Shown piece by piece: positions 11,523 to 27,318 of a stretch of DNA of 64,000 nucleotides; the first letter of the stretch is position 1; every line of letters begins with the position of its first letter. Source of the DNA: Acidobacteriota bacterium (GTDB taxonomy: Bacteria > Acidobacteriota > Thermoanaerobaculia > Gp7-AA8). The position numbers and the translations under genes are program-made. The notes beneath the pieces are model-generated. The model did not search any database. It was not told the DNA's origin and saw only the letters and a list, made by a program, of their open reading frames with translations. Where the stretch lies: contig JAJXWV010000015.1 in the NCBI GenBank assembly GCA_021781455.1, positions 60,435-124,434 on the forward strand, given 5' to 3'.

Positions 11523-12059
11523 CTAAGGATTCTTCAGCAACCTCTCGACCGCTTCGATCGCGATCGACCGCCGCTCCTCCCACCCGCCGCGGATCAGCAC
11601 CACCGCGGCTCCATGCTCGGCCAGCACGCGCCGGAACAGCTCCAGGTGCGCGGCGCGATCCTCGGCGGCGTCCCTCGCGGCATCGCGCACGAACGGCACG
11701 TCGATGTCGTGCAAAAGGTAGACGTCCGAGCGGCGCGCCCGTGCTTCGGTGGCAAGCCACTGGGGGACGAAGTCGTAGTAGTACCGCGCGTAGACGATCG
11801 TGCTGATCAGGTCGGTGTCGAAGACGAGCAGCCGCTTCGCGCTCCCGACGAGGCGCTCCTCGTTGGCGATCTGCCCGCGGCCGATCGGCTCGACGTCGTC
11901 GCGCGTCAGCTCGCGGCCGACCGCGAGCGCGTATTCGCGCGAGTACTCCGGCACCCAGACCGTTCCGTAGTGCGTCGCCAGCAGCGCCGCCAGCGTCGTC
12001 TTCCCGGTGCACTCAGGGCCGGTCACACAGATGCGGAGGTGGCGAGCGAGCGTTTCCAT
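11523..12059 (-). CDS. NadR-like P-loop kinase in a TPP-regulated operon (candidate thiamine kinase)
   Basis: 178 aa from ATG 12059. The Walker A sequence GPECTGKTT is followed by VPEYSREYA and later FDTDLISTIVYARYY and LLHDIDVPFVRD, the layout of the nucleotide-kinase domain of NadR. Family annotation would say ribosylnicotinamide kinase. However, the gene overlaps pnuC by 37 nt and the operon has a TPP riboswitch at its head, so phosphorylation of imported thiamine (or a precursor) is the more likely role. This is inference from context, since substrate residues cannot be read with confidence. The ORF-track N-terminal 50 codons read through pnuC and are excluded. Confidence 0.8.
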   Translation of the reverse strand: METLARHLRICVTGPECTGKTTLAALLATHYGTVWVPEYSREYALAVGRELTRDDVEPIGRGQIANEERLVGSAKRLLVFDTDLISTIVYARYYYDFVPQWLATEARARRSDVYLLHDIDVPFVRDAARDAAEDRAAHLELFRRVLAEHGAAVVLIRGGWEERRSIAIEAVERLLKNP

Positions 12060-12592
12060 TCGACGAAACCCCGAATCGCGAGCACACAGAAGAGCGCATA
12101 GAGCGCCGCGGTCAGCGCGCGGTGACCGAAGAGAAACATCGGCACGTAGATGAGGTCGACCATCAGCCAGATCAACCAGTTCTCGAGGAGCTTCTCGTTC
12201 ATCATCCACTGCCCGACGAGGCTGAAGGCAGTGGTGAACGCATCCGAGAAGGCGAAGACTTCATCGCTGGTCCACCGCAGCAGGCCGATGATCGCCGCGG
12301 TCAGGACGATCCCCGAGAGCGCGCACCCGATCCACTGCCGCGCCGTCGTCTTCCTCACGTGCAGCTCGCCGTGATTGACGCCGCCGTGCAGCCACTCGTA
12401 CCAGCCGTGAATCGAGAGGATGAGGTAGACGATCTGCAGCGCGGCGTTGGAATAGAAGCGCGACTGGTAGAAGACCACGCCATACAGGATGACGCTGGCA
12501 ATCCCGGTCGGCCAGGTCCAGATGTTCTGCTTCACCGCCAGCCAGACGTTGGCCAGGGTGAAGACGACGGCGGCGATTTCGAGTGGGGACAT
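12023..12592 (-). CDS. pnuT: PnuC-family vitamin transporter (PnuT-like, thiamine)
   Basis: 189 aa with about seven transmembrane helices. PnuC-family signatures include IWTWPTGIASVILYGVVFYQ, LQIVYLILSIHGWYEW and the helix ENWLIWLMVDLIYVPMF. PnuC proteins are facilitators that trap the vitamin by phosphorylation, consistent with the overlapping kinase gene. Since the operon begins with a TPP riboswitch and a TonB receptor, the substrate is probably thiamine (PnuT) and not nicotinamide riboside. The gene symbol is context-based. The gap to the receptor gene holds a 150-nt inverted-repeat element. Confidence 0.82.
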   Translation of the reverse strand: MSPLEIAAVVFTLANVWLAVKQNIWTWPTGIASVILYGVVFYQSRFYSNAALQIVYLILSIHGWYEWLHGGVNHGELHVRKTTARQWIGCALSGIVLTAAIIGLLRWTSDEVFAFSDAFTTAFSLVGQWMMNEKLLENWLIWLMVDLIYVPMFLFGHRALTAALYALFCVLAIRGFVEWKRSLATSASV

Positions 12593-12628
12593 TGATCAGA
12601 TCGAGGCGGCGCAGTTTATCGCGCCCCC

Positions 12629-12779
12629 GTCACTCTGAGCCGGCGCAACCGCGGGGGCGGCGGATGGGCGGGAGCGGTGGAGCGCGGCGAAGAGTCTCTT
12701 ACCGGGACGATTGGCAGGTTTGAGACTCTTCGCCGCGCTACGCCGCTCCATTCTGTCTCCGCCGGCTCAGAGTGACGGG
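12629..12779. repeat. 150-bp palindromic element, copy 1 (CACTCTGAGCCGGCG family)
   Basis: It begins with CACTCTGAGCCGGCG and ends with CGCCGGCTCAGAGTG. An inner pair, GCGGCGAAGAGTCTC and GAGACTCTTCGCCGC, flanks a short centre. About 95 nt from its left end are nearly identical to copy 2 (25779-25875). It sits between the TonB receptor and pnuT. Confidence 0.9.
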
Positions 12780-12815
12780 GCGCGCTCCGCTGATCCCTCG
12801 AGGTCAATCAAAAAA

Positions 12816-15122
12816 TCACATCTTCACGTTCAACATCACCATCACGTTCCTCGTCGCCTGCGGGTAGTAGTAGGGAATCCCGCTGATCGACTCGGCGCCG
12901 CTCGGGTCGCGGTTGAGGAAGAGATAGCTGTAGCCGCTCGGATAGACGCGCCTGTTGTTCAGGATGTTGTTCACCTGCACGGTCAGCCGCGGCGTGCCGC
13001 GGTTGACCCAGCGAGCGAGCGACGCCGACACGTTGCCGTCGAGGACGAAGAACGACGGCGCCACGAGGTCCGGATTGTCCGTGTTGTCGAGGTACGACTT
13101 CGCCACGTACCGACCGGTCACGCTCGCGCCGACCATCGACTGCGGCGACCAGTCCACGGTCTGGTTGACGATCATGCGGGGCGTGAGCAGCGGCTCGACG
13201 TTGGTAAACGTCAGCGGCTTGCTGCCGACCCAGTTCCCGGCCGCGTCGTAGACGTCGTAGAACTGCGTCCAGGTGTGGATGCGGTTGCGGCTGACGTTCG
13301 CGTTCGTGCGCAAACGCAACGACGGCAGCACCTGCCACACGGCATCCAGCTCGAGACCCCGGCGGTAGCTGCGGTCGACGTTGCGCCGGAGCGCCAGACC
13401 GATGTCCGACAGCTCGCCGGTCGCGGCGATCTCGTGGCGAAACTCCATCGCGTAAACGTTCGCCTCGAGCTTGACGTTCGAGGTCTGGAAGTCGTAACCG
13501 GCTTCGAAGTCGACGAGGCGCTCCGGCCGCACGGCGTGCAGATCGTGCGGGATCGTGGCGTTGTCCTCACCCTGGAAGAGGTCGTTCCGGGCCGGCTCGC
13601 GCGTCGACACCCCGACCGACGTGTAGACACTCGACAAGGGTGAGAGCTCGCGGCGGGCGCCCAGCTTGGGGTTGAAAAAGGTCCAGCGAATCGGGGCAAT
13701 GGCCACGTCGCCGTGGTAGTGGAAATCCTTCGTCCGGAGCTGGTTGTCCGAATAGAAGAGCCACTTCGACGCCGTCCAGGTGAACTTGGCGAAGGCGTTC
13801 GCCTCGCTGTTCGTCCCGTAGTTCCAGTAGTCGCGCGGGCCGCCCACCAGATCGCGCGTGTGGACGCGGCGGAAGTGATTGATGTTCACGCCGTAGTTCG
13901 CACTGAGCGCGCCCCGATTCCAGCTGAGCGCGACCATCGAGCCGACGAGCATTCCGTCCAGGCCGTACTGGCGCAGGCCGGTCTGCGAAGCCTCGTCGTC
14001 GAACAGCCGATACCAGCCGAAACCGCGCTGGTAATAGGCCGAGGCCGTCACGTTCGTGGAGTCGGAGATCGAGCGGATGTACTGCAGCTGCGCCAGGTCG
14101 TAATCGAAGTTGTCGTGATCGGCGGGCGACAGCGGGTTGGCGCGCATGTTCGTCTGAATGGTCTGGAGATCGGGCGCGTCCCACGATTGCTGCTGGTGCT
14201 CGTGCCCCGCGAAGCCCGTGATCCTCAACTGAGATTTCTCGCCTTGCCTGGCGGCGCTGATGAAGAGGTTGTGCTGGTCGATGCCGGAGTGCTCCCGGAA
14301 TCCGTCGGTCCGGTTCACGGACAGCCGGGCGTATCCGAGAAACCCTCCCGGGAGAAGGCCGGTCTGGTATCCCACCGTCGCGAAGCGCGTCCCGAAGGAG
14401 CCGCCGGCCACCTGCGCGTCGACGCTGCTCTTCTGCGCCAGGTCGATGCTCTGCAGGTTGACCGATCCGCCGAACGACGGGGCGCCGAACGTCGACGTTC
14501 CCACCCCGCGCTGGATCTGGATGCTCTCGAGCGAGCGCGCGAGATCCGGAAAATCGGCGAAGTACGTGGCCATGTCTTCCGAATCCGCGAGCGGCACTCC
14601 GTCGAGCGTGAAGTTGATGCGCGTCGGAGCGACGCCCCGCAGCGTGATGTACGAATACCCCGAGCTGCCGATGCCCGACTCGGTATAGGCGTTGATCGAC
14701 GGCGCAGCGCGGAGAAGCAGGGGAATGTCCTGATTGTGGTAGTCGGCCTCGATCTCGAGCTTGTCGATGGTCGTCTTCGTCACGGGCGTCTCCGGCTCCG
14801 CGCGGATTCCGGAGACCACGATGCTCTCGGCGAGAACGGGATGGAGATCGACCTCGACGACGGCGCCGCTGGCGGTGTCGATGTTCAGGGCGTCCGGCTG
14901 AAAGCCAGTGCGCACGACGCGGAGGACGTGCCGCCCCGCGGCGGCCTCGAAGGCGAAGGTGCCATCGGCGCCCGTGGTGAGCGCGCGGCCGTCATCGAGC
15001 GTGACCGCGGCGCCGGCCACCGGCTGCCCGGCCGGATCCTTGACGACGCCCTTGATCGTCGTGGCGAATGCGGCGATCGGGAAGAGAAGAACGAGAACTG
15101 CGGAACGGACGAATGCGCTCAT
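12816..15122 (-). CDS. TonB-dependent outer-membrane receptor (thiamine uptake candidate)
   Basis: 768 aa from ATG 15122, chosen because GGAGG lies 5 nt upstream. An earlier ATG at 15146 has no such site. A signal peptide (SAVLVLLFPIAAFATT) is followed by a carboxypeptidase-regulatory-like domain (VKDPAGQPVAGAAVTL, about residues 25-95), a TonB-box-like ESIVVSG (about 100-107), a plug domain (YSYITLRGVAPTRINFTLDGVP) and a long beta barrel. It is the first gene after the TPP riboswitch, so the cargo is probably thiamine or a thiamine derivative imported across the outer membrane and handed to PnuT. Confidence 0.9.
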   Translation of the reverse strand: MSAFVRSAVLVLLFPIAAFATTIKGVVKDPAGQPVAGAAVTLDDGRALTTGADGTFAFEAAAGRHVLRVVRTGFQPDALNIDTASGAVVEVDLHPVLAESIVVSGIRAEPETPVTKTTIDKLEIEADYHNQDIPLLLRAAPSINAYTESGIGSSGYSYITLRGVAPTRINFTLDGVPLADSEDMATYFADFPDLARSLESIQIQRGVGTSTFGAPSFGGSVNLQSIDLAQKSSVDAQVAGGSFGTRFATVGYQTGLLPGGFLGYARLSVNRTDGFREHSGIDQHNLFISAARQGEKSQLRITGFAGHEHQQQSWDAPDLQTIQTNMRANPLSPADHDNFDYDLAQLQYIRSISDSTNVTASAYYQRGFGWYRLFDDEASQTGLRQYGLDGMLVGSMVALSWNRGALSANYGVNINHFRRVHTRDLVGGPRDYWNYGTNSEANAFAKFTWTASKWLFYSDNQLRTKDFHYHGDVAIAPIRWTFFNPKLGARRELSPLSSVYTSVGVSTREPARNDLFQGEDNATIPHDLHAVRPERLVDFEAGYDFQTSNVKLEANVYAMEFRHEIAATGELSDIGLALRRNVDRSYRRGLELDAVWQVLPSLRLRTNANVSRNRIHTWTQFYDVYDAAGNWVGSKPLTFTNVEPLLTPRMIVNQTVDWSPQSMVGASVTGRYVAKSYLDNTDNPDLVAPSFFVLDGNVSASLARWVNRGTPRLTVQVNNILNNRRVYPSGYSYLFLNRDPSGAESISGIPYYYPQATRNVMVMLNVKM

Positions 15123-15147
15123 GGAAGCCTCCGATTCGTTCCGCACG

Positions 15148-15225
15148 AGATCGCAGAGCGCAGATCGCAGATCGCAGATCGCAGGTGTGGATGGCCCTGC
15201 GATCTGCGATCTGCCATCTGCGAGC
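15148..15225. repeat. Inverted heptamer array, GCAGATC family, in the riboswitch leader
   Basis: The left arm 15148-15184 is tandem GCAGATC, and the right arm 15196-15225 is tandem GATCTGC/CATCTGC. The spacer is only about 11 nt, so the leader RNA can form a long hairpin between the TPP aptamer and the receptor start codon. Confidence 0.9.
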
Positions 15226-15294
15226 TGACAGCGGAACGCAGCGTTTCCAGGAGTCCTACTGTGGTGGTGTGGTCGAGAGAGTGTTCAGCTTGCC

Positions 15295-15364
15295 TTTCCC
15301 TACGCCGGTATGAACCGGATCAGGTTCGGAGGGTCTGATCTCAGGCCGTGAGGCCACCCCTAGG
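15295..15364 (-). promoter_or_regulatory. TPP riboswitch (THI element)
   Basis: Read on the minus strand, the conserved core elements appear in order: CCTAGGGGTGG, then CTGAGA, then ACCC, then GAACCTGATC, then GGTTCATACC and GCGTAGGGA closing the first helix. This matches the thiamine pyrophosphate aptamer consensus at all invariant blocks. It controls the downstream receptor-transporter-kinase operon. Thiamine pyrophosphate should repress expression, either by an expression-platform hairpin or by blocking initiation. Confidence 0.95.
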
Positions 15365-15381
15365 CTCCAACTACGCAATCG

Positions 15382-15387
15382 AGTTTA
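15382..15387 (-). promoter_or_regulatory. Candidate -10 (TAAACT) for the TPP-regulated operon
   Basis: Minus-strand TAAACT lies about 18 nt upstream of the first aptamer nucleotide, so a start just before the riboswitch is expected. No good -35 is visible. Confidence 0.45.
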
Positions 15388-22817: not shown

Positions 22818-23539
22818 GCGACCCCCGGCTCGCGCCCTGCGCTCCGCGCTCTGCGATCTGCGATCTGCGTCTCGTGCTCCATGACTTCCGACGCGCGCCC
22901 CGCCCACATCACCCGCCCCGCCTCGAGCAGAATCGCCTCGTCGGCCAGCCCGACGCCGCGCTCGAGCTGGTGCGTGGCGATCATGACCGTCGTCCCCTGC
23001 GCCTTCAGCTCGCGCACCACGTCGTCGACGAGCATGAAGCCTTCCGGATCGAGCTGGCCGTATGGCTCGTCGAACAGCACGAGGGTCGGCTCCTGCAGCA
23101 GCACTCTCGCGAACGACAGGCGTTTGCGCATCCCGGCCGAGAACGTCGAGACCGGGTCATCCGCACGGTTCGCGAGAGCCACCCGTTCGAGGAGCGCCAT
23201 CACGCCGTTCCGTGATCGGCCGAGGTGATCGGCGGCCACGCTCAGGTTCTCGCGTGCCGTCAGCGACTCGTACAGGTAGGACTGATGGCTGAGCAACGCC
23301 ATCATCCGCCGGATGTCCTCGCGGTCGCGGAGGAGGTCGAACCCGTTGATCATGGCGCGACCGCGATCGGGCCGAATGGCTGTCGACAGCACCCGGAACA
23401 GAGTCGACTTGCCAGAACCGTTGCGTCCCGCCACCATAACCACCGATCCGCTGCGGACCGTGAACGAGACATCGGCCAGCGCCCACCGCCGTCCATAGCG
23501 GCGGGCGAGGTTCTCTGCTTCGATGAGAATCGCCCCCAT
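22811..23539 (-). CDS. ccmA: Heme ABC exporter ATPase CcmA, repeat-encoded C-terminus
   Basis: 242 aa from ATG 23539. Walker A GRNGSGKST (about residue 39), signature STFSAGMRKRLSFA, Walker B LVLFDEP and the H-loop ATHQ are all present. The last 20 or so residues (QIADRRARSAGREPGVAC) are encoded by GCAGATC-type repeat units and resemble nothing expected of CcmA, so the original stop has probably been lost to a repeat. It is the first gene of the ccm operon, divergent from the HEAT-repeat lipoprotein gene. Confidence 0.92.
   Translation of the reverse strand: MGAILIEAENLARRYGRRWALADVSFTVRSGSVVMVAGRNGSGKSTLFRVLSTAIRPDRGRAMINGFDLLRDREDIRRMMALLSHQSYLYESLTARENLSVAADHLGRSRNGVMALLERVALANRADDPVSTFSAGMRKRLSFARVLLQEPTLVLFDEPYGQLDPEGFMLVDDVVRELKAQGTTVMIATHQLERGVGLADEAILLEAGRVMWAGRASEVMEHETQIADRRARSAGREPGVAC
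22835..22870. repeat. Half array of GCAGATC heptamers inside the ccmA 3' end
   Basis: Plus-strand units CTGCGAT/CTGCGCT occur in tandem. Only one arm is present, with no clear inverted partner. It codes for the C-terminal tail of CcmA. Confidence 0.75.
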
Positions 23540-25740: not shown

Positions 25741-25778
25741 GACGGCGCGCCTGACATCCTGAGCCGTACCGCAGCTCC

Positions 25779-25925
25779 GCCACTCTGAGCCGGCGCAACC
25801 GCGGGGGCGGTGGATGGGCGGGAGCGGTGGAGCGCGGCGAAGAGTCTCTTACCGGGACGATCAGCAGGTCAGAGACTCTTCGCTCTGTCCAGCCACCAGG
25901 GAGGGCAGGCTGGAAAGCCTGCCCT
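25779..25925. repeat. Palindromic element copy 2, truncated, plus GGGCAGGC hairpin
   Basis: 25779-25875 matches copy 1 (12629-12725) with only a few differences. The right arm then stops after GAGACTCTTCGC. It is followed by AGGGCAGGC TGGAAA GCCTGCCCT (25902-25925), the same hairpin word as inside ccmH. It lies directly downstream of the HEAT/cyclophilin gene. Confidence 0.88.
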
Positions 25926-27072: not shown

Positions 27073-27275
27073 CCCGTCACTCTGAGCCGGCGGAGCCGCG
27101 ACTCCCGTCACTCTGAGCCGGCGGAGACGCGGGGGGCGGGTGGAGCGGCGGAGCGCGGCGCAGAGTCTCCAGATTGCACGATCGCGGTGAGCCTCACGAT
27201 CCTCTCCAACCCCGGTCAGAGACTCTTCGCCGCGCTCCGCCGCCGGGGGCGGCTCCGCCGGCTCAGAGTGACGGG
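27073..27275. repeat. Palindromic element copy 3 (CACTCTGAGCCGGCG family)
   Basis: The left part has two tandem copies of CACTCTGAGCCGGCGGAG. The centre is flanked by GCAGAGTCTC and GAGACTCTTCGCCGCGC, and the right end reads CCGCCGGCTCAGAGTGACGGG. It is more diverged than copies 1 and 2. It lies between the convergent dehydrogenase and isochorismatase-like genes. Confidence 0.85.
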
Positions 27276-27318
27276 ACGCGATTCCACCGGCTCATGTTGA
27301 CGGGGGCGCGGACGGCCG

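Follow-up and report, generated by a model that had tools for sequence, protein, structure and literature searches.

Thiamine salvage in Bacteroides involves the OMthi-pnuT-tnr3 operon, which is preceded by a TPP riboswitch and in which tnr3 encodes a thiamine pyrophosphorylating enzyme (Costliow and Degnan 2017, PMC5613172). In a biosynthesis mutant, deletion of either the receptor or PnuT raises the thiamine requirement about tenfold (PMC5613172). Vitamin models treat ThiK, ThiM and ThiN as the signature enzymes of B1 salvage (PMC6593275), and a paper on NAD-II riboswitches states that the class of the riboswitch allows a prediction of what PnuC-like proteins are specific for (RNA 2021, PMC7749635). 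A further point of reference is NadR, a bifunctional NMN adenylyltransferase/ribosylnicotinamide kinase (1LW7, 6GYE, 8X7F; PMC7221760), whose gene often adjoins pnuC.

The locus described here lies in a window of 64,000 nucleotides, the whole stretch of DNA that was analysed, from an Acidobacteriota bacterium. As in Bacteroides, a TPP riboswitch, a TonB receptor, a PnuT and a phosphorylating enzyme, the last by predicted function, follow one another in the same order and on one strand. Judged from its sequence, the layout is that of the known OMthi-pnuT-tnr3 operon with the last gene replaced: unlike in Bacteroides, this gene encodes a NadR-type P-loop kinase and not Tnr3/ThiN, so that ThiL would be needed afterwards. 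The features are as follows.

15279..15371, (-) strand: TPP riboswitch aptamer (THI element, RF00059), 69.7 bits, gathering threshold 54.3
15140..15225, (-) strand: strong hairpin between the aptamer and the receptor start, leader fold z -5.7, dispersed GATCTGC-type repeat
12816..15122, (-) strand: TonB-dependent outer-membrane receptor, predicted thiamine receptor, PF07715 Plug 48.2 bits plus a carboxypeptidase-regulatory-like domain
12600..12815, (-) strand: large palindromic dispersed repeat in the receptor-transporter gap, fold z -10.6
12023..12592, (-) strand: PnuC-family transporter, predicted PnuT (thiamine facilitator), PF04973 175.7 bits, TIGR01528 82.4 bits
11523..12059, (-) strand: stand-alone NadR-type kinase, predicted thiamine kinase, 178 aa, PF13521 (AAA_28) 117.9 bits

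An earlier note on this DNA had described an operon of TonB receptor, PnuC-family transporter and NadR-like kinase behind a riboswitch; the RF00059, Pfam and NCBIfam matches confirm it, and its coordinates and strand are right. We consider it very probable that this is a TPP-repressed thiamine scavenging operon of a thiamine auxotroph, with the NadR-like kinase acting as thiamine kinase. At low TPP the riboswitch would permit expression of the operon, the TonB receptor would carry thiamine through the outer membrane, and PnuT would offer it a diffusion path through the inner membrane. The kinase would then trap it as thiamine monophosphate (TMP), which ThiL, encoded separately, would turn into TPP. 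Here we infer the substrates of the receptor and transporter, and the reaction of the kinase, from sequence.

The riboswitch is the only RNA family match in the window. It spans the covariance model in full (positions 1-105 of 105, E 1.2e-11) and contains the consensus parts CTGAGA, ACCTGATC and GCGTAGGGAA, which makes the earlier description of a full-consensus THI element a fair one. A search of the whole genome (4.88 Mb, 90 contigs, 100% complete) counted a single TPP riboswitch. Riboswitches of this class are off at high TPP, and both the ligand, from the sequence of the element, and the direction of control, by analogy with the class, are presumed to be the same here. Because the leader has no T-run terminator (a T run is not present after the hairpin at 15140-15225, (-) strand) and a dispersed repeat makes up its main hairpin, control is likely translational. 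Both this hairpin and that in the receptor-transporter gap were considered as parts of the switch and rejected, since they are copies of dispersed repeats; for the gap hairpin, the short receptor-transporter gap of the relatives was a further reason. The leader palindrome consists of GCAGATC/GATCTGC units, with additional copies at positions 2168-2319 and 22834-22877 of the window and in L010 and L014; the leader copy, which separates the TPP aptamer from the receptor start, may influence the output of the switch.

The receptor gene starts with the ATG at 15122 behind a GGAGG, and a longer GTG frame reaches 15146. It is split from pnuT by one copy of the REP/MITE-like repeat at 12600-12815, which is not so in the relatives; other copies lie at 25777-25883 and 27073-27282 and on other contigs (L006, L007, L013, L014). 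The transporter is a membrane protein that NCBIfam labels as nicotinamide riboside (NR) transporter PnuC (82.4 bits, cut-off 42.45). An alignment of the sampled loci gave no clear residue separating the transporters of the thiamine set from those of the NR set; riboswitch and gene context point to thiamine as the predicted substrate. The kinase gene starts inside the transporter gene, with an overlap of 37 bases.

The kinase shares its fold and Walker motifs with NadR. It has a Walker A motif GPECTGKT and a DTDLIST motif, and its AlphaFold model (pLDDT 93.6) has the P-loop fold of ribosylnicotinamide kinases, with the NadR kinase domain 8x7f as best match (TM 0.90), followed by 1lw7 (0.81) and then by thymidylate kinases. 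TIGR01526 (nadR_NMN_Atrans) matches over 164-325 of its 325 positions only, that is, in the C-terminal kinase half, and its score of 86 bits lies far below the cut-off of 341. Unlike the bifunctional NadR, this protein of 178 aa has neither an N-terminal NMN adenylyltransferase (NMNAT) domain nor a DNA-binding domain, and it is under predicted thiamine, not NAD, regulation. An NCBIfam scan of the kinase listed no thiamine kinase, and viral contigs scanned with it gave no match.

What the rest of the genome encodes for thiamine defines the step for which such an enzyme would be needed. Searches of the genome returned no match to thiN (TIGR01378) at E<=10 and none to thiC at E<=1, nothing over cut-off for thiE (best 17 bits) or for the archaeal-type TMP synthase PF10120, and for ThiK (TIGR02721) a best score of 13.4 bits against a cut-off of 299, on another contig. 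ThiL, which converts TMP to TPP, is found with 228.7 bits. Because ThiL is there and the other enzymes were not found, we predict a thiamine auxotroph, able to make TPP from TMP and with no known enzyme for the step from thiamine to TMP. The kinase, at the end of the sole TPP-controlled operon, is the candidate for this step and would fit the gap exactly. The earlier note had made its reassignment depend on whether canonical thiN or thiK is missing from the genome and whether a separate complete thiamine salvage set exists; neither gene was found within these limits, the search for such a set did not refute the reassignment, and it stands. In its predicted role the kinase would resemble ThiK (YcfN) of enterobacteria, which likewise leads from thiamine to TMP and on to ThiL, although the two belong to unrelated families.

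The distribution of these enzymes across the phylum bears on the product of the reaction. We searched 247 genomes of the phylum with the kinase, ThiN and ThiE, and 45 selected genomes with ThiL; NMNAT-fused kinases were set apart by a gap of 425-523 bases between transporter and kinase domain together with alignment, and one was checked by profile. ThiE is missing in 32 of the 247 genomes. Fourteen of these 32 have a stand-alone kinase (G000, G001, G016, G028, G041, G043, G052, G053, G055, G064, G085, G160, G213 and G238; G213 has a divergent copy without riboswitch), twelve have ThiN (G012, G045, G065, G113, G128, G137, G153, G177, G192, G220, G231 and G246), and none has both. Of the others, G005 has a fused NadR only, and five have neither kinase nor ThiN (G066, G078, G096, G186 and G215). 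The kinase would thus occupy the same physiological slot as ThiN/Tnr3 (thiamine pyrophosphokinase, TIGR01378), the predicted trapping of thiamine after uptake, but comes from a different family, and in ThiE-less genomes the two are mutually exclusive. Among the 14 kinase genomes, 13 have a ThiL match over cut-off, as against 0 of the 12 with ThiN (Fisher p 2.7e-6), the exception among the former being G043, which is 83% complete; counted by family the figures are 7/7 versus 0/6 (p 6e-4), and kinship is only partly corrected in these counts. The complementarity is not total, as four ThiE-less genomes with ThiL (G066, G096, G186 and G005) have neither ThiN nor a stand-alone kinase. ThiK was over cut-off in none of the 21 genomes tested.

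This pattern argues that the kinase needs ThiL downstream, that ThiN makes ThiL dispensable, and that the kinase product should be TMP. The earlier note had left a choice between thiamine kinase and thiamine pyrophosphokinase, and because ThiL is kept in kinase genomes and not in ThiN genomes we favour the former. An enzyme that makes TPP in one step and replaces ThiN in full would fit the place of the gene, where the Bacteroides operon has the ThiN-like tnr3, as well as its complementing ThiN across the phylum. Such an enzyme would, however, leave ThiL dispensable, and the fold of the kinase is of the P-loop nucleoside-kinase type. The characterised relatives of this type transfer one phosphate. 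We regard pyrophosphokinase activity as very unlikely.

The linkage to thiamine genes extends beyond this genome. Within the phylum, receptor-transporter-kinase sets in nine further genomes have a TPP riboswitch over the gathering threshold upstream, and one more locus falls just short of it (54.2 versus 54.3 bits); in the riboswitch-linked L047 the kinase stands tail to tail with the transporter, not in line. None of eight scanned loci with an NMNAT-fused NadR has a TPP riboswitch, the ninth, L072, being outside the scan. Both types occur in G028, where the riboswitch is found at the stand-alone kinase only and not at the fused NadR.

Species genomes scanned with the kinase alignment yielded 343 relatives, of which the best 80 were analysed, with a covariance model derived from the riboswitch sequences. 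These 80 come from Acidobacteriota, Gemmatimonadota (including one Gemmatimonas phototrophica assembly), Bacteroidota, Pseudomonadota, Halodesulfovibrio and a few other taxa. In 74 of them the transporter immediately precedes the kinase, and 42 have a TPP element. The TPP riboswitch is present in all 30 loci that have an intact TonB gene upstream, at a distance of 9-322 bases before the receptor match. In the remaining 38 of the 80 no TPP riboswitch was found near the kinase; many of these are contig ends, and several full-length loci in Gemmatimonadota, Bacteroidota and Halodesulfovibrio are also without one. Some relatives without riboswitch may therefore have other substrates, and not every relative need be thiamine-specific. 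Two gammaproteobacterial loci, L103 and L121 (Arenicellales/Acidiferrobacteraceae), show a different arrangement, in which a TPP riboswitch and then thiB, thiP and thiQ come after the kinase (thiBPQ profiles were run on L103; thiB 390 bits), and no PnuT was found. The thiBPQ genes encode the thiamine ABC transporter. This linkage to a second thiamine transporter, unrelated to PnuT, is independent contextual evidence for thiamine.

An alignment of the stand-alone kinases gave the signature DTDL(L/I)ST.VYxRHYYGxCPxW together with DVPWxxD, which sets them apart from NadR. In a tree of 106 kinase domains, four of them from NadRs of solved structure, built by a quick method with SH-aLRT support and no bootstrap, the motif-bearing stand-alone kinases form one side of 91 rows (SH-aLRT 91) that contains no NMNAT-fused NadR and all 47 of the 47 riboswitch-linked rows. 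A further short kinase, L073, groups with the fused NadRs, and relatives without a detected riboswitch are scattered through the tree. The loss of an aromatic residue in the thiamine set, Trp to Tyr at position 90, was tried as a specificity marker and dropped, as the solved NadR of H. influenzae has Phe there.

Automatic annotation (PF04973, PF13521 and the partial match to TIGR01526) and the closest fold, NadR, would instead make the kinase a normal nicotinamide riboside kinase and its partner a PnuC that carries NR, the riboswitch being incidental or co-regulating B3 and B1 salvage. The missing NMNAT domain and the place of the kinase in the tree, apart from the fused NadRs, speak against this, as do the confinement of the TPP riboswitch to the stand-alone branch, the thiBPQ linkage in another phylum and the fact that, in a predicted B1 auxotroph, the kinase fills the single gap in B1 salvage. 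We hold such a role to be highly improbable. A reading that overlaps with ours is that the enzyme acts on thiamine in vivo and also, to a relevant degree, on NR or other vitamers. Close descent from NadR-type kinases and the mixing of relatives without detected riboswitch through the tree would suit dual specificity of this kind; in G028, however, a separate fused NadR means that the stand-alone enzyme is not needed for NR, and we think it unlikely. The preferred reading of a thiamine kinase, which the earlier note had drawn from the riboswitch, gains support from the presence of ThiL in a genome where ThiN, ThiK, ThiE and ThiC were not found, from the complementarity with ThiN, and from the riboswitch and thiBPQ linkages.

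Taken as a group, these proteins probably constitute one more family of thiamine kinases in bacteria, apparently without a name so far, that arose from the ribosylnicotinamide kinase domain of NadR. Its members, which occur in Acidobacteriota, Gemmatimonadota, Bacteroidota, some Pseudomonadota and Halodesulfovibrio, would replace ThiN or ThiK in many thiamine auxotrophs, and their annotation as NadR or AAA ATPase would be wrong. In genome-based models, auxotrophs of this type would seem unable to use thiamine, with their PnuT and kinase assigned to vitamin B3. The case offers a testable enzyme reassignment in the large and poorly cultured Acidobacteriota and Gemmatimonadota and, if true, illustrates a change of substrate within the NadR kinase fold. 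Our literature search found no paper on a NadR-like thiamine kinase, and none that links NadR to a TPP riboswitch, or a thiamine kinase to PnuC or to ribosylnicotinamide kinase; an earlier mention in Rodionov et al. 2002 (JBC) or in curated databases is possible.

Several observations on individual relatives can be added. L056 (G160) and L060 (G213) encode divergent stand-alone NadR-like kinases without riboswitch that branch between the thiamine set and the fused NadRs, and the kinase of L056 is also without an adjoining transporter. In the NMNAT-fused NadR relatives L067 (G028) and L070 (G180), from two distant genomes, the Walker A motif reads GAESTGTTTL, with Thr for the conserved Lys, and in these two the kinase half may have lost its activity or act in another way. 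In Halodesulfovibrio spirochaetisodalis the pnuC-kinase pair is closely followed by six tRNA genes of equal score on one strand (L147:7779-11053, (-) strand), four of the six at a spacing of about 300 bases.
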